In this document: in pieces, positions 2,550 through 10,555 of the stretch
How the letters are laid out: the number at the start of each line of letters is the position of its first letter
Numbering within the stretch: the first letter of the stretch is position 1
Source: Candidatus Fermentibacterota bacterium
GTDB lineage: Bacteria > JAFGKV01
Direction: 5' to 3'
DNA: 12,535 nt
Assembly (NCBI GenBank): GCA_030620115.1
Contig: JAUXFG010000114.1
Span: 1 to 12,535 of the forward strand
The notes under the pieces: generated by a model
The model's input: only the letters and a program-made list of their open reading frames with translations
Databases searched by the model: none
What the model was told of the DNA's origin: nothing
Program-made: the position numbers and the translations under genes

Positions 2550-3620
2550 TCAGGGCATGGAAGCCATAAGGTCAAGGAGAAGACGCTGATCCCGGCCGGA
2601 ATCAAGGCTCTCCACGGCGAGGAATTCCCCTTTCACTGCTGCGTAGACTGTATCTCCATTCTTCTCGGAGGAAAGCAGGATGATTCCCTTGTCCCGTGTG
2701 GTGGATACGTGGCCCAGCTTTGACATCAGATTTGTTGCCGCGGCCTTCGCCTCGCGTTGGTTCGTCATCCGGCAGAGAAGGATCTCGTTGGTTGTGGTCG
2801 TTCGGTGAGGGGAACTTGCGGCTGCGGTGATCCTCGCTGGATCACGGAATACGTAGCGCCACATCTGTTCGGGTCTGATGCCGCTTTCAGACTCAAAACC
2901 AGAGAGCAACAGTGCATTGACCTGATGCCAGCCTATGTACACGATCCCTGAATTCCGGGAAGGCTGAGTCCAAGGCGGGGGTCTTGAGTCGACCTGGGAC
3001 CTGGTGAGCACAAAAGGAGGTTCTCCTTCTGGCGCAAACCTGTCAGGAATGACACCTGACAACATGAAATTCTCCAGAAAGGCATGGACCGCGGCGGCAA
3101 CACCTGCCGGCGTCCTGCTGGAGAGACGTATCATCCATGTCCAGTCCGTGAACTGAGTACCCTCATGATGTGCCTTGTCCTCAAGCTCCACGTTGAATGG
3201 GTTCCTGCCCGGCTCCACAACGCCGACCCTGTCTCCGGGGAGATCGCCGACCCCAAAAAAGAAAAGACCCCGCACTGGGAATCTGCCTCCCTGTTGCTCT
3301 TTGCTTCGAGACCAGAGGCTGGGAAACTCGACCAAAAGACGATTCCCCGTGAACGTGCCCACCACAATCAGGTTCAGAGAACCGGCATGTTCCCTATGAT
3401 CCATGATCCAGTTGTCATCCACTACCATGGCGCCACTGGCGCCCGATGCCAGGGAAAGCTTCTGAGCGGCCGCGCGTTCCATGTCGGATGCATTATGGGA
3501 TACCACGATTCTTGTCTCGGGGCCTAACCAATGAAGGAGCGGATGAGCGGCCGGAGCACACCACATGCAGGCACAGAAAAGGGGCGGCAACATGCACCGG
3601 CCGATTTTGGAAATCATCAT
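2550..3620 (-). CDS. Secreted protein of unknown function, third gene of the hydrolase operon
   Basis: The 356-residue product starts with an export signal: MMISKIGRC, then a hydrophobic Leu/Phe/Cys/Trp stretch to about residue 24, ending near APAA. Residues about 35-90 (ETRIVVSHNASDMERAAAQKLSLASGA, then LNLIVVGT) look like a small alpha/beta domain. That pattern is loosely similar to the non-catalytic N-terminal domains of some secreted glycosidases, but no enzyme motif is seen. Residues 115-185 contain FFFGVGDLPGDRVGVVEPGRNPF and a WMIRLSSRTPAGVAAAVHAFL helix. The C-terminal part (275-350) looks alpha/beta and ends at the stop. The ATG at 3620 overlaps the TGA of the upstream gene by four bases and is preceded by GAGGGGG, which decides it over the in-frame start at 3881 deep inside the neighbour. 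It probably works with the two upstream secreted enzymes. I do not recognise the family. Confidence 0.75.
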   Translation of the reverse strand: MMISKIGRCMLPPLFCACMWCAPAAHPLLHWLGPETRIVVSHNASDMERAAAQKLSLASGASGAMVVDDNWIMDHREHAGSLNLIVVGTFTGNRLLVEFPSLWSRSKEQQGGRFPVRGLFFFGVGDLPGDRVGVVEPGRNPFNVELEDKAHHEGTQFTDWTWMIRLSSRTPAGVAAAVHAFLENFMLSGVIPDRFAPEGEPPFVLTRSQVDSRPPPWTQPSRNSGIVYIGWHQVNALLLSGFESESGIRPEQMWRYVFRDPARITAAASSPHRTTTTNEILLCRMTNQREAKAAATNLMSKLGHVSTTRDKGIILLSSEKNGDTVYAAVKGEFLAVESLDSGRDQRLLLDLMASMP

Positions 3621-6600
3621 GATGCCCCCTCGATGAGGATTATGCGCGCTCCCGTAGGGCATGCGGGGATGTGTAATCTGAATCCTTTCGCCATTTGCTC
3701 GATCCTCAGTGTTTTCGCCTCGAACAGCTCTATGGCCCGAGTCGGGTGAAGAGGGGAGAAGAGCTCCAGAGAGATCGGTCTCGAGGCGCCTTCCGTGTCT
3801 TCCACGATGAGCACCAAATCGGTGCCGCGCTCGAACGCATACCATGCCACACCTTTGGGGGCCGTCACCCGGAAACGGCACCTCTTCTGAAGCTCGGCGG
3901 CAAACTCCGAAAGCTGCGCATACTCCTCAGGACTTCCCTCATCCCAGAACGGACCCCGCACATTGCCCCGTCGCAGGACCGGCACCGTACCGCTGGAAAG
4001 CTGCCGGACCGGGATTCCCGTGTACTGCGAGAGGGTCAAATCGGAGAGGCCGCATCCAACAAGGCCGATGGTCACGCCCTGGCGCAGGCATTCCGAAAGC
4101 GCCTGCTGCTCACGTTCATGTAGTCGACCGGGCACTGGCACGATGAGGCCATCCAGGAGCGTATGCTTGTTTAGAAGATCGAGGCGTGCCAGGGCCGAGA
4201 TAGGGAGCCCCGTTTCCCGAAGCATGCTGAAGAGCCGGGCCTGATCCCCGATGATGACTTGGTCTTCCCCTGGCTCCGGAAACCTGGGGCCCACGGCGGC
4301 CAGGGCAAAGCCGCGCGGTCGCTGGGGTCGAACGGCCTCGGCCAGCGCATAGAGCTGCTCCAAGATCCACCAGTCCTCTGCGAACGCCACATGCCCCCCC
4401 CTGATTCCTCTGCTGCAGAGGGGGAGCCATGTTTCCCAGCCCCCCAACCACGAAACGCCACCGCCGTTGGGATAGTCGAACACCGGAATCCATGAGCCTT
4501 CGGGCCCGGCCACCATCATCCAGAAGGCATCTGCGTTCTGTCTCCGGATCCGTTCAGCCTTGCTGATTCGTTCCGGGCCGTCACCCCCGAGCATCTCCAT
4601 ATGGAAATGCCCCACCTTTGCCGCGGGCGCCAATGCCTTTCCAAGACACACCAGATAGGTGGCCGCGCGAAAATCTCTCCCCGCGCGTACGTTCCATGCA
4701 TCCATGGATGAGATATCGAATACTGCCTGCCACCGGGAAGCGAAGCGCTCAATTTCGGGGATCTTCAAGAGCGTCGGGAGTTGGGGTAGATCGAACTGAT
4801 CGGTGACTTGAGACGCAGGGGAGGGAGCTTGCAGCTCTTTCTTGAAGATCTCGTGGGCTGGCAGAGCGATTTCGGTAGCCACGAAGAATCGCCAATAGGG
4901 ATCCAGCGCCCCTTGCGCCAATCGCGCAAGGCTATCAATGGACACACCGGCAAAATCCATTCCGAATTCTTGCTCCATCCAGGGCACAAAGAGATCCAGA
5001 TGCTGGGGATGCACGGCAGCCGCGGGCCATACCACGCCGTTGAAGCCATCCACCAGGGAAGCGCTCACGATCATCCGTTCCCCTGTCCACACATGGCGAC
5101 TGAGATCTCTGATGGCGGGAGCCAACCACTCCCGGTAATGAATCCCATTGGGCAGAAACGTGAAGGGATTGGGATGGAAGTTGCACCACGGTTGTCCTGG
5201 CCAGCTGTGGTAGAACGGCCCCCAGGCAAGCCCCTTGACAGGATCAGCGGCAAGGTTCTCCCGCGCGAATTCCACGGCGTTCATATGCGGGAAAAGCGTG
5301 CCAAGAACCTGCACGCCCTTGTGCTTATCCCAGATGACGTTGCGGAAGCCGTCATTCTTGCCTTGTACTATGAAGCTCCTGGATGCAAAAGCGCCGTTGA
5401 GTGTGGCCTCGGCCCGATACACTCCAAAACTGTCATGAGGCACGAATTCCCATGTGTCAATGCCCCATGGCCATGGTGCTTTTCTGGCCGATTTCGGCGT
5501 CAGAGACCTTGGGGTTCCGGTGCGAAGCTCCTGCAGCCGGAGTTCCGGATGTTTGTCTTCGCCGGGAGCCCATCGTTCGACATACAGGGTGGCCTTCTCT
5601 CCCGGCAGGAAGAGAGGGTATTGGGATGCTGGTGACCAACCGGAAGGAAATGTATGATCGCGGAATCTCGGCCATGTGGCCGGCTCCCGGGGAGGGGTTC
5701 GAAGCTGCACCGGCGTGTGCCACACGTGCAGGGTTGGCCCGGGGCGCTCAATGCGTTTTTCCGCCCAGGCGAGGCACCGGCTTCCCGAGGATGAGAGCAC
5801 TGCCAGCTCCAGCCAGAGGAACTCATGCTCAGCCGCACGGTAAACCATCATCTCTTGTGGATCAGGCCATGGGATGAGAAGGGGGAACGTTTTTTTCGGT
5901 GAGGTGATGATTGGCATCTCAATAGTGGAGATGAGGCTTCGCTGCCAGTCCCTGAACCGGGCGCGGACCAAAAGCGAAGACGCTCCGGCGGGATCAGGAT
6001 GAATCCTGATGGAAACGCCCTCTTCTCCCGGCACAAAATCTCCGGGCAGGAAACGCTCGTCTACCGAGATTTCTCGCGCCATCCATGCGATAAGCTGTGA
6101 CGAATCCTCACACAAGAATCGTTGCTTGCTGGCCTGCACATCGCTCCAATCCAAGGCGCGAGGGTTGTGCCATTCCAGCATGTCGGCAACGGACGCTACT
6201 TTGCTTCTTCCTACTCGTTTCATGGCCACCGCGGGAGATCCGTCCTCCCAAGACCAGAGCACCGTCTCCAGGGCCTCGCGGGCGGACGGCCGGTGAAACG
6301 GCTGCGCCAGCCTGAAGCCTGTACTTGTGACAAGAATAGCTTTGTCGCCGAAATGGACCAGGGGAATCGAGGCGCCGGCCATGCCCCAGATCCCGACGCG
6401 GACCTTGCCCGCTCCTGCCGCAGGTATCACTGTCCACGATCCATCGGCGCAGGGCTTTCCATATCGATCATCAGCCCAGAGTGCCCTTACGGCTCCAAAA
6501 CGCTCCCCATCGATACATATCTGGGATTCACGGAGGTCCGGTGGAAGCGGAACCGTGTGCACCCAAGGCCCCGCATGCTCGAGCCGGCGTTGCCAGGTCT

Positions 6601-8074
6601 CGTCATCAGACAATGGAATCGGCGGAGGATAGCGTGATGAAGCTGGTTCCCATGGATCTGGCGATGGCCGGGTTTGGAAGATCTCAGGAGCAGTCACCAA
6701 GACTGATTTCCCGGAAAAAAGCGCGCTGTCCAGGGCTGCCACGGCGGTTGGACTTGCCTCGCCTATAACAAAGAGATCAGCCTCGTGATCTTCAACTGGT
6801 TCCAAACCCATGCGGATCATCTTGCCCCACGGGAGCCGCCCGCATCCCCAGATTTTCGCCAGCGGGGGATCCGAAGTTCCCCTTGTTTGGGAGAGCCGTT
6901 GCACCATGGTCTCCAGAAGGGCCCTGGCCTCAGGTTGGAGGAAGAGCCCTGGTGACGCACACGCAAGAACCTCTCCGGCGCCAAAGGAACACCGCGTCAG
7001 GAGCGGTGAGCCCCGGGGATCATTGGCCTTGATGAGTACTCCATGGCCGGACGCCAATGGGGAAAGGTTCCATCGCGATGTCTCTTGCGTTCCAGGGCGG
7101 GCAAATCTCGGATGCATGGGGAGGTCGATGCCTGCGTTGAGTTCCACTGGAGGTGAAGCCTCGAGACCCAGACCGGCAGTGCTCGAGTCAGTGGGCACGG
7201 GACGCACCATTCCCACCGAAGAGTAGGGGAAGCCAAGGAATGTGGGGAGGATCTCCTCGATGGGGAGCTCGATCCAGTGTTTTACGTCGTCATGGAAGAG
7301 CACCAGGAGCCCGCCCCCCCTGCGCACATATTCTGCCAGGGAGAAGGCCGCCTGCCGAGAGAGCAGCAGCCGGGAGGAGAGCATGATCATATCATACTGG
7401 GAGAGGAGGTCAGTGGCCTCTGGGAGAGCAACCGAAAGATCAGTTTCACCCACGAGCCCCGCGCGTCCGGGATCGCCCGCATGAGGAGGATTGGTGACCC
7501 GAACCTGCAGATCATTCCTGCCGGGGAGAAGGTGCTCCAGCGCTACCTGCACGTCGCCCCAGTTGCCCCCGCCCCGGCCAAGATAGATGCCATTCACATA
7601 GACGGCCAGCGAGTCCTCCATCTTTCTAAACACCATGGCCGGCGGGAGCGGCGAGCCGGCCTGCCAATCGAAGCTTCGTCGGTACCACGCCACTCCTTCA
7701 TATCGTTGCCCGAGGTAATGCCAGCTTCGCCCCACTTCTATCGATTGCCACCCCGCCGTCTCGTTGGAAAAGGCCCAGCCCTTGATCTCCCCATCCGCAG
7801 CGGGGTCTTTTCGCCACTCCCACGTATTTGTCCACGAGGGCTGACCGGAGAGCGTGGCGGCATGTATGCCCAGGGAGGTGAAGACGGAATCAATGGCCTC
7901 GGCAGGATTGCCCGGGGGCTCGAGAAGGAGAAGGGAGTGGCCTGAGAGGTCGGATCGGGGGGCCGTGGTGACGCGGAGAGACTGGTTATCCTGATCCGAT
8001 GCACCACCGCACACGAGCAGGACGCTCACCAATAGGAGTGCCCGGGACACAATACGCATGGCCCGTCCGATCAC
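3617..8074 (-). CDS. Giant secreted multidomain glycosidase-like protein
   Basis: The 1485-residue protein begins with a signal peptide (MRIVSRALLLVSVLLVCGGAS, to about residue 26). Residues about 85-215 form a GH2-like sugar-binding jelly roll: GVAWYRRSFDW, then LAVYVNGIYLGRGGGNWGD and the LLPGRNDLQVRVTN strand. Residues 222-400 contain a class I amidotransferase-like fold (YDMIMLSS, LAEYVRRGGGLLVLF, SFGAGEVL). Residues about 410-900 are mostly beta-type with no family recognised. Residues about 915-1250 (FPHMNAVEFAREN, WGPFYHSWPGQPW, IVSASLVDGFNGVVWP, GVSIDS, GHFHMEMLGGDG, FAEDWWILEQLYAL) look like a TIM-barrel glycosidase domain. A second amidotransferase-like segment follows at 1270-1355, as in GH42-type architectures, then a C-terminal beta region. 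No catalytic acid pair can be assigned, so activity is inference. The GTG at 8074 overlaps the sulfatase stop by four bases; ATG at 8059 is an equally possible start. It is the middle gene of a three-gene operon. Confidence 0.8.
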   Translation of the reverse strand: MIGRAMRIVSRALLLVSVLLVCGGASDQDNQSLRVTTAPRSDLSGHSLLLLEPPGNPAEAIDSVFTSLGIHAATLSGQPSWTNTWEWRKDPAADGEIKGWAFSNETAGWQSIEVGRSWHYLGQRYEGVAWYRRSFDWQAGSPLPPAMVFRKMEDSLAVYVNGIYLGRGGGNWGDVQVALEHLLPGRNDLQVRVTNPPHAGDPGRAGLVGETDLSVALPEATDLLSQYDMIMLSSRLLLSRQAAFSLAEYVRRGGGLLVLFHDDVKHWIELPIEEILPTFLGFPYSSVGMVRPVPTDSSTAGLGLEASPPVELNAGIDLPMHPRFARPGTQETSRWNLSPLASGHGVLIKANDPRGSPLLTRCSFGAGEVLACASPGLFLQPEARALLETMVQRLSQTRGTSDPPLAKIWGCGRLPWGKMIRMGLEPVEDHEADLFVIGEASPTAVAALDSALFSGKSVLVTAPEIFQTRPSPDPWEPASSRYPPPIPLSDDETWQRRLEHAGPWVHTVPLPPDLRESQICIDGERFGAVRALWADDRYGKPCADGSWTVIPAAGAGKVRVGIWGMAGASIPLVHFGDKAILVTSTGFRLAQPFHRPSAREALETVLWSWEDGSPAVAMKRVGRSKVASVADMLEWHNPRALDWSDVQASKQRFLCEDSSQLIAWMAREISVDERFLPGDFVPGEEGVSIRIHPDPAGASSLLVRARFRDWQRSLISTIEMPIITSPKKTFPLLIPWPDPQEMMVYRAAEHEFLWLELAVLSSSGSRCLAWAEKRIERPGPTLHVWHTPVQLRTPPREPATWPRFRDHTFPSGWSPASQYPLFLPGEKATLYVERWAPGEDKHPELRLQELRTGTPRSLTPKSARKAPWPWGIDTWEFVPHDSFGVYRAEATLNGAFASRSFIVQGKNDGFRNVIWDKHKGVQVLGTLFPHMNAVEFARENLAADPVKGLAWGPFYHSWPGQPWCNFHPNPFTFLPNGIHYREWLAPAIRDLSRHVWTGERMIVSASLVDGFNGVVWPAAAVHPQHLDLFVPWMEQEFGMDFAGVSIDSLARLAQGALDPYWRFFVATEIALPAHEIFKKELQAPSPASQVTDQFDLPQLPTLLKIPEIERFASRWQAVFDISSMDAWNVRAGRDFRAATYLVCLGKALAPAAKVGHFHMEMLGGDGPERISKAERIRRQNADAFWMMVAGPEGSWIPVFDYPNGGGVSWLGGWETWLPLCSRGIRGGHVAFAEDWWILEQLYALAEAVRPQRPRGFALAAVGPRFPEPGEDQVIIGDQARLFSMLRETGLPISALARLDLLNKHTLLDGLIVPVPGRLHEREQQALSECLRQGVTIGLVGCGLSDLTLSQYTGIPVRQLSSGTVPVLRRGNVRGPFWDEGSPEEYAQLSEFAAELQKRCRFRVTAPKGVAWYAFERGTDLVLIVEDTEGASRPISLELFSPLHPTRAIELFEAKTLRIEQMAKGFRLHIPACPTGARIILIEGAS

Positions 8075-9747
8075 GACGAAGACTCAGGTTCCAGGTTAAA
8101 TGTGATCCATCCGGTTGCAAGCTTAGGGCGCCCGGCAGGCAATACCCGGAACTGCCACGGATTGTAGCGCACGAGAGTACCCCAGAACGCCGGGCTGAAG
8201 GGGCCGAAACTCACGCCCTCTGGCGTGGAAACAATGGTTCCCTCCACATGATACGGCCCAGTCCCCACATTGTACTCGATCTCATATTGCCCGCGACCCG
8301 GGGTGTTGAGTCTCACGCCAAGGCGGCCGCCAGTGCCGGCAAAGCTCAAGCTTTCTCCAGATGTCGGGCTCAGCACCACCGGTTTTTCAGGATGCCAGGG
8401 AAGCGTATCAGTCCGGGTCCAAAGCGGCTGGGTGTACAGTGAGAGACAATCTACCAACCATTGACTCAAGAGCGCCTCCATGCTATCGGCCACGGCATTG
8501 TTTGCTTCGCTGACGTCGGTCATTTCCATAGGATCGGTCTTGATGTGGTAGAGCCAACGCTGGGCGCCGCTCTTCTCGGTATCGCGCTTGATGAGCTTCC
8601 ACGTGGGAGTGCGGATGGCTCTCAAGTGGATGCCTTGCATCTCGCGGGTTGCCTGATACCCCCCCAACACGGAGGAGATGAACACCGTGCGTTGATCTAT
8701 CGCATCCCCTTTCAGTGCCGCCGCCAGAGATCTGCCCTGCACGTCCTCGGGGATGGAGATGTCAAGAAGATCGAACAATGTGGGCATGATATCCACGATC
8801 TGGACCTGTTCCTCCACCTTGCCTCCCGGCAGAATTACTCCGGGCCACGAGGCCACGAGGGGAATCCGCAACGTCTCGTCAAAAAGGCTGCTGGTCATTG
8901 CGGTGCTGGCGTGCCCCACGGCCCCATGGTCGAGCAGCTCTTCGCCATGGTCAGCCGAGATGATGATCAGGGTATTCGCATCCACTCCAAGCGCGCGGAG
9001 CTTCCCTAACAGGGGTCGCAAGAAGGTGATGTCGAATTGTGCGAGCTCCCCATCGTACAGCCCGCATATCCACCCGGTATCTGACTCTGCATATTGAATA
9101 GATCCTGGAGGCAATAGCAAGGAGCTCCGCACTTTTTCATAGCGCTGGTACGCATCCGGCTCGGAGGGGGGCGCGCCATCAGGCATGAAGAGCGTATCGA
9201 ATGGCGGAGATGGGTCATAGGGCTGGTGGAGATCCCGATAATGGTAGTAGAGGAGGAAAGGCTGTTCTTTTCCACCGAACTCATCGAGCCATCGGAACAG
9301 GATATCATGACCCGCAGTCAAGAAATCCTGCTTCTGGGGAAAGTCCTGAAAACCGAGATTCTGATAGTTCGGTGCGCCGATGAGATAGCAGATATCAGGC
9401 GCCGTGTATCCCGCGTTCACCAACTCCCCCGCCATGGTGGGGACCCCGGGAGTCAAGTTCTTCTCCCTGGTGGTGATCCCGTGCGCAGGTTCATGCCGGC
9501 CTGTGAGCAGCGAAAGGAGTCCGGGAGATGTCCATGCGGCCGAGCTGAAGGCATTGGTAAAGATGGTTCCCGAAGCGGCGAGGCTATCCAATGTAGGTGA
9601 AACAGGCTTCTCATACCCGTAGCAGCCTAGGTGATCCGGGCGCAGGGCGTCAATAGTGATCACAATGATGTTCGGTTGTCTCGTCGCCATGGTGCTTGAT
9701 GCGAATAACATACTCACGAGAACAGTGACAAGAAGGGTGGTTTTCAA
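8071..9747 (-). CDS. Secreted sulfatase-fold hydrolase with Thr at the nucleophile position
   Basis: The product is 558 residues. Residues 1-21 form a signal peptide cleaved after TMA. The alkaline phosphatase/sulfatase fold follows: NIIVITIDALRPDHLGCYGY (metal ligand Asp33), then WTSPGLLSLLTGR (72-84). In classical sulfatases that segment reads C/S-x-P-S-R; here the nucleophile position is Thr73, and the Ser and Arg are Gly76 and Leu77. HYRDLHQPY (169-177, likely catalytic His174) and SADHGEELLDHG (metal ligands Asp266, His267) are intact, as is the PTWKLIK stretch near 381. Residues 455-558 form a C-terminal beta-sandwich-like extension. The start is TTG at 9747, because GGAGG lies 6 bases upstream and the hydrophobic signal follows directly; an in-frame start at 10044 would overlap the divergent gene. 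First gene of the operon. A sulfatase, phosphodiesterase or phosphotransferase role is possible; the Thr favours non-formylglycine chemistry. Confidence 0.87.
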   Translation of the reverse strand: MKTTLLVTVLVSMLFASSTMATRQPNIIVITIDALRPDHLGCYGYEKPVSPTLDSLAASGTIFTNAFSSAAWTSPGLLSLLTGRHEPAHGITTREKNLTPGVPTMAGELVNAGYTAPDICYLIGAPNYQNLGFQDFPQKQDFLTAGHDILFRWLDEFGGKEQPFLLYYHYRDLHQPYDPSPPFDTLFMPDGAPPSEPDAYQRYEKVRSSLLLPPGSIQYAESDTGWICGLYDGELAQFDITFLRPLLGKLRALGVDANTLIIISADHGEELLDHGAVGHASTAMTSSLFDETLRIPLVASWPGVILPGGKVEEQVQIVDIMPTLFDLLDISIPEDVQGRSLAAALKGDAIDQRTVFISSVLGGYQATREMQGIHLRAIRTPTWKLIKRDTEKSGAQRWLYHIKTDPMEMTDVSEANNAVADSMEALLSQWLVDCLSLYTQPLWTRTDTLPWHPEKPVVLSPTSGESLSFAGTGGRLGVRLNTPGRGQYEIEYNVGTGPYHVEGTIVSTPEGVSFGPFSPAFWGTLVRYNPWQFRVLPAGRPKLATGWITFNLEPESSS

Positions 9748-9874: not shown

Positions 9875-10555
9875 ATGTTCTTCTGGGATCCGACTTTTTT
9901 TATTCTGATTCCCGCCATGATTCTCGCAATGTACGCGCAGAACAAGGTGAAGACCACATTCGCTGCAATGTCGCGGGTTCCCACCAGGCGTCGGCTCACC
10001 GGAGCCGAAGTAGCCTCGCGAATACTAAAGATGAATGGACTCACTGAGGTGGTCGTTGAGCCGCAGCCCGGCCGGCTTACCGATCATTATGACCCCAGAA
10101 CCAAGCGTGTCCGTCTCTCGGAGCCGGTCTATAGCGGCCGGTCGGTAGCAGCGTTGGGGGTTGCAGCCCACGAAGTTGGGCATGCATTACAGGACAAGGG
10201 CGGCTATCTCCCCTTGAAGTTCCGTCATGGGCTTCTTGGTCCCGCACAACTAGGCAGCACGCTTGCATGGCCGTTGGCGATTTTCGGGCTCATACTTGGC
10301 AGCCCAAAACTGCTCGATATCGGCATCCTGCTTTTCTCCGGGGTGGTTCTATTCCATGTCGTTACGCTCCCGGTGGAATTGAATGCCTCCAGCAGAGCCC
10401 TGGCCCATCTATCCAAGTCTGGGATCCTCGCCGGCGATGAGATCCCTGGTGCACGCAAGGTGCTCAATGCCGCCGCTCTGACCTATCTCGCCGCCGCTGC
10501 GGTCGCCATGGCAAATCTGTTACGACTGCTCATTCTCCGGGGATCACGTGATTGA
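9875..10555 (+). CDS. YugP-type membrane zinc metallopeptidase
   Basis: The 226-residue protein matches the neutral zinc metallopeptidase family typified by Bacillus YugP, including its usual length of about 225-230. Residues 4-20 form an N-terminal membrane helix. LTGAEVASRILKMNGL and DHYDPRTKRVRLSEPVYSGRSVAALGVAAHEVGHALQ follow. The zinc site is HEVGH (His99, Glu100, His103), with Glu168 in LPVELNASSRAL as the likely third ligand. Hydrophobic segments at about 126-141, 147-165 and 200-221 anchor it in the membrane, and the tail ends with basic residues. The family is conserved but its substrates are poorly known; a membrane-protein quality role is often assumed. It is transcribed away from the hydrolase operon, so a functional link with that operon is not implied. 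Confidence 0.92.
   Translation: MFFWDPTFFILIPAMILAMYAQNKVKTTFAAMSRVPTRRRLTGAEVASRILKMNGLTEVVVEPQPGRLTDHYDPRTKRVRLSEPVYSGRSVAALGVAAHEVGHALQDKGGYLPLKFRHGLLGPAQLGSTLAWPLAIFGLILGSPKLLDIGILLFSGVVLFHVVTLPVELNASSRALAHLSKSGILAGDEIPGARKVLNAAALTYLAAAAVAMANLLRLLILRGSRD

Follow-up and report, generated by a model that had tools for sequence, protein, structure and literature searches.

A secreted sulfatase-like protein with threonine at the formylglycine position, probably a phosphate-ester enzyme

Introduction

What does a sulfatase-like enzyme do when the residue that should become formylglycine is a threonine? This question is raised by a gene in the 12,535-nt stretch of Candidatus Fermentibacterota DNA analysed here (the window). 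Its product matches the sulfatase family PF00884, and a first-pass annotation of the sequence described a threonine that replaces the usual cysteine or serine. Such residues are no novelty in this family: as early as 2016, the SulfAtlas authors pointed out that Thr is found in 30 out of 59 Pfam seed sequences of PF00884, that Thr cannot yield formylglycine, and that its conversion has never been shown (PMC5066984). Here, we ask whether the threonine is truly the nucleophile, how common it is in the genome and in the family, and which chemistry the site as a whole suggests.

Results

Gene, export signal and overall fold

The enzyme of 558 aa is encoded on the minus strand at 8071-9747, with a TTG start at 9747 that is preceded by GGAGG and the stop end of the gene at 8071. 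A longer reading from a GTG at 10044 was discarded, as it would run into the divergently oriented gene at 9875 and begin with an N-terminus without a signal peptide. The protein starts with an N-terminal signal peptide of approximately residues 1-21 (9685-9747, minus strand; cleavage site placed by eye), the sole hydrophobic stretch in the sequence, and is by this feature an exported or secreted protein.

The PF00884 match is clear (115 bits against a curated cut-off of 25) and, together with the fold, places the protein in the alkaline phosphatase superfamily. A match to SGSH_C lies towards the C-terminus, and the protein ends in a beta domain (8074-8394, minus strand), which we describe as fibronectin-III-like at weak confidence: the fold search returned just weak Fn3/Ig-like matches, and the best of them, with Z 7.5, falls short of the value at which a merely common arrangement is excluded.

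The AlphaFold model (mean pLDDT 92.7) aligns to solved sulfatase-type members with Z scores of 33-41 in a VIA-align search. Overall fold and length are shared, in this range, with formylglycine sulfatases (SulfAtlas S1) as well as with phosphonate monoester hydrolases (S1_0). Neither EptA nor LtaS structures are among the 50 best fold matches listed, an absence that speaks against neither of them. Each of the best-matching solved structures belongs to a formylglycine-type enzyme, in most cases a true sulfatase, and the fold is thus no argument for phosphate rather than sulfate.

The active site

The nucleophile motif, WTSPGLLSLLTGR, comprises residues 72-84 (9496-9534, minus strand) and includes Thr73 (codon ACA, 9529-9531), the predicted nucleophile. 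In sequence alignments with PDB entries, Thr73 faces the Ser or Cys of known sulfatases, and in a profile alignment it faces S136 of E. coli AslA, C52 of YidJ, T282 of the phosphoethanolamine transferase EptA and T302 of YejM/LapC. The alignment is validated by YejM/LapC, whose published active-site residues D268, T302, N403 and R451 (PMC7576196) land exactly on query columns 33, 73, 174 and 267. No Cys or Ser could be found in the nucleophile position of this alignment, so that only Thr73 remains, in agreement with the first-pass annotation. Leu77 is aligned with R140 of AslA and R56 of YidJ; it thus occupies the column of the CxPxR arginine, which had been described as lost, and an Arg four residues past the nucleophile is absent. 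The protein also lacks the Cys or Ser on which formylglycine-dependent sulfatases of S1 rely. Threonine is invariant across the 12 closest homologues (12 out of 12), which excludes chance as the origin of the site.

The remaining residues are equally well defined on the minus strand. The predicted metal ligands are Asp33 (9649-9651) and the pair Asp266-His267 (8947-8952). His174 (9226-9228) is an active-site histidine that aligns with H385 of EptA and is invariant in Thr-type relatives, and His279 (8911-8913) follows His267 by 12 residues. The residue numbers given earlier for D33, T73, P75, G76, L77, H174, D266 and H267 all proved to be right, as did the claim that the ligands and His174 are kept, and their columns match the EptA set. 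The EptA-type histidine H279 was missing from that list.

With H279 included, the query carries the complete E/D-T-H-D-H-H set of EptA: E244, T282, H385, D455, H456 and H468 correspond to D33, T73, H174, D266, H267 and H279, in the same order and with near-identical spacing. The distance of 12 residues from H267 to H279 recurs between H456 and H468 in EptA and between H466 and H478 in MCR-1, likewise a phosphoethanolamine transferase, and the first ligand precedes the Thr by 40 residues in the query and by 39 in MCR-1. Crystals of MCR-1, EptC and LptA show a phosphate on the homologous Thr, and the T285A mutation abolishes the function of MCR-1 (PMC5031297). EptA differs in its N-terminal membrane domain and in other substrate-binding parts, whereas the query has a signal peptide in place of an N-terminal transmembrane domain, is secreted and soluble, and carries an SGSH_C-like subdomain and the extra beta domain.

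The likeness to Thr-nucleophile phosphotransferases, which had been proposed with LtaS as the model, is thus strengthened by H279, while LtaS itself is not the best reference: the nearest active-site match is EptA, and the fold is nearer to soluble sulfatases. The phosphoglycerol transferase LtaS shares the Thr nucleophile and the D-H metal pair, as judged from published residues quoted in PMC7576196 and not from a direct alignment here, but has Glu at position 33 and is anchored by a membrane domain that the query does not have. Formylglycine sulfatases and phosphonate monoester hydrolases share positions D33, H174 and D266 with the query; the query differs from them in having no Cys or Ser, no CxPxR Arg, His instead of Lys at position 279, and His267 where most of them have Asn.

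Threonine is the normal state of a large clade

The site is readable in 23 sulfatase-family proteins of the host genome: it is Thr in 22 of them and Arg in one, while Cys and Ser do not occur. The exception (L027, G000:C255:12619-13437) shows GGFG in place of DHG and is, from its sequence, probably a dead enzyme. This degenerate paralogue is what would make one consider that the window enzyme, too, has lost its catalytic activity and that its Thr is a neutral change in a former sulfatase; Thr73 and every metal ligand are kept across phyla, however, and we regard this reading as very improbable.

Beyond this genome, a survey of 80 further PF00884 genes from other genomes, whose places were drawn from E-value-ranked lists and not at random, comprises 48 Thr, 29 Cys and 3 Ser proteins; two of its rows (L196 and L197, QSCTAGRASFMTG) had first been scored as Thr and were re-read by hand as Cys shifted by one column. 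The CxPxR Arg is present in all 29 Cys proteins and in none of the 48 Thr proteins, and the second metal pair is D-H in 48 out of 48 Thr proteins, while Cys proteins mostly have D-N. A survey of related loci, in which the site could be read for 103 relatives (97 Thr, 1 Ser and 5 Cys; the five Cys proteins are neighbouring true sulfatases), is biased towards DHGEE proteins by its search pattern, and for this reason we rely on the 80-gene survey.

A tree of 212 sequences separates the carriers of the CxPxR arginine from all others by a clean split (36 out of 36, no intruder, support 0.996). The query, with its Thr nucleophile and D..DH ligands and without the CxPxR Arg, falls inside the separate clade of uncharacterised Thr-type PF00884 proteins, from which its own subclade is distinguished by WT..GL, an invariant GHAST and the C-terminal beta domain. 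At column 279, 91% of the Thr-type proteins have His in place of the sulfatase Lys, and formylglycine enzymes have Lys or are variable. The Thr type has already been noticed as a large group across many bacterial phyla, and the window enzyme is an ordinary member of it. Hence, the earlier view of the Thr as a peculiarity of one enzyme does not hold, and the word "replaces" is misleading, since Thr is the normal state of the clade. Literature searches revealed no characterised soluble Thr-type enzyme, and literature and structure searches together revealed neither an assayed activity nor a solved structure for a member of this soluble branch.

Maturation enzymes

That the enzyme works independently of a formylglycine maturase, as had been suggested, follows from the chemistry of Thr (PMC5066984). 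The six FGE-like genes (PF03781) in the host genome were counted against our preferred explanation. A search for the FGE cysteine motif gave no hit in them and equally none in genomes rich in Cys sulfatases, so that the motif says nothing about genuine FGE here. No anSME above the cut-off was found in the genome; the best match has 47 bits, far under the cut-off of 349 bits. As the genome is devoid of any Cys or Ser sulfatase, the maturase question is moot for the PF00884 family here.

Gene neighbourhood

Downstream, a 1485-aa secreted protein is encoded at 3617-8074 on the minus strand, and its GTG start overlaps the stop of the enzyme gene. It matches no Pfam or NCBIfam family and gives just weak beta-galactosidase-type jelly-roll signals; no glycosidase family could be assigned to it. 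Two family-level relatives carry the enzyme at 59% identity with the same neighbours: a zinc-peptidase gene in divergent orientation, the 1485-aa protein with its overlapping start (47-49% identical) and the ORF that follows. Among 241 genomes, the 1485-aa protein occurs in these three alone. This ORF (2550-3881, minus strand) has no Pfam match, extends into the 3' end of the gene for the 1485-aa protein and keeps its location in both relatives; its true start is probably nearer to 3617. Further along, a homologue of AbiEii-type nucleotidyltransferase toxins is encoded at 1681-2493 on the plus strand (39 bits).

Outside the family, the five nearest homologues (L052-L056) stem from Latescibacterota, Gemmatimonadota and one further bacterial MAG. 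Their enzymes carry 5-6 C-terminal hydrophobic segments, which in L054 match VanZ. A gene for an O-antigen ligase (Wzy_C-TPR) lies directly downstream in L053-L056 and three genes downstream in L052, and the same model found none in the other loci searched. This adjacency hints at surface-glycan chemistry for the subclade L052-L056, and it bears on the window enzyme indirectly. At L049 (10241-13850), a more distant homologue adjoins a VanZ-like gene and a gene whose product has a GH123 catalytic domain.

Discussion

Implementing these observations, we consider it likely that the window enzyme, as a secreted member of the Thr-type branch of PF00884, acts as a phosphodiesterase or phosphotransferase with one metal and a phospho-threonine, and works without formylglycine; the label "sulfatase" is then probably a misnomer for a phosphate-ester enzyme. 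D33, D266 and H267 would bind a single divalent metal that activates Thr73 as an alkoxide, which in turn would attack the phosphorus centre of a presumably glycan- or lipid-linked substrate, held or protonated by H174 and H279. The resulting phospho-Thr intermediate at Thr73 could be resolved by water, as in a phosphodiesterase or phosphatase, or by a sugar hydroxyl, as in a transferase; formylglycine and its maturase would play no part. The missing membrane anchor makes us lean slightly towards hydrolysis.

The same Thr could also be thought to form a sulfo-enzyme intermediate, with a sulfate ester as the physiological substrate. This would be in agreement with an overall fold nearest to carbohydrate sulfatases, with the C-terminal SGSH_C match, and with the neighbouring giant secreted protein and its weak beta-galactosidase-type domain. 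It is difficult to reconcile with the His that most Thr-type proteins carry for the sulfatase Lys at position 279, and with a nucleophile and metal set that are those of phosphotransferases. The SulfAtlas authors, moreover, ask for experimental support before a protein of this type is accepted as a functional sulfatase or given that name (PMC5066984). We therefore judge a Thr-dependent sulfatase to be improbable.

To our knowledge, no Thr-type sulfatase has been described.

Within the preferred phospho-threonine reading, a narrower version would see the enzyme as an EptA/OpgB-like transferase that places phospho-substituents on surface glycans, together with polysaccharide assembly and ligation. 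The hydrophobic segments of L052-L056 with their downstream O-antigen-ligase gene and the glycosyltransferases that adjoin L053, L054 and L061 speak for this version. The window protein, however, has no membrane segment beyond its signal peptide, the neighbours of its gene are different, and the loci L052-L056 are related to each other and do not represent five independent events. Altogether, this version seems possible but rather doubtful.

From a biological point of view, one may speculate, at still lower confidence, that the soluble Thr-type "sulfatases" form a large, phylum-wide clade of phospho-enzymes with an EptA site that edit extracellular glycans, and that the nearest subclade, with its O-antigen ligase and VanZ-like membrane part, adds or removes a phospho-substituent during surface polysaccharide assembly. 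PF00884 matches alone would credit genomes such as this one with about two dozen "sulfatases", none of which has a formylglycine site, so that the degradation of sulfated polysaccharides would be over-predicted from such matches. If the phospho-enzyme reading is true, a very common and uncharacterised group of enzymes would become accessible to assays with standard phosphodiester substrates.
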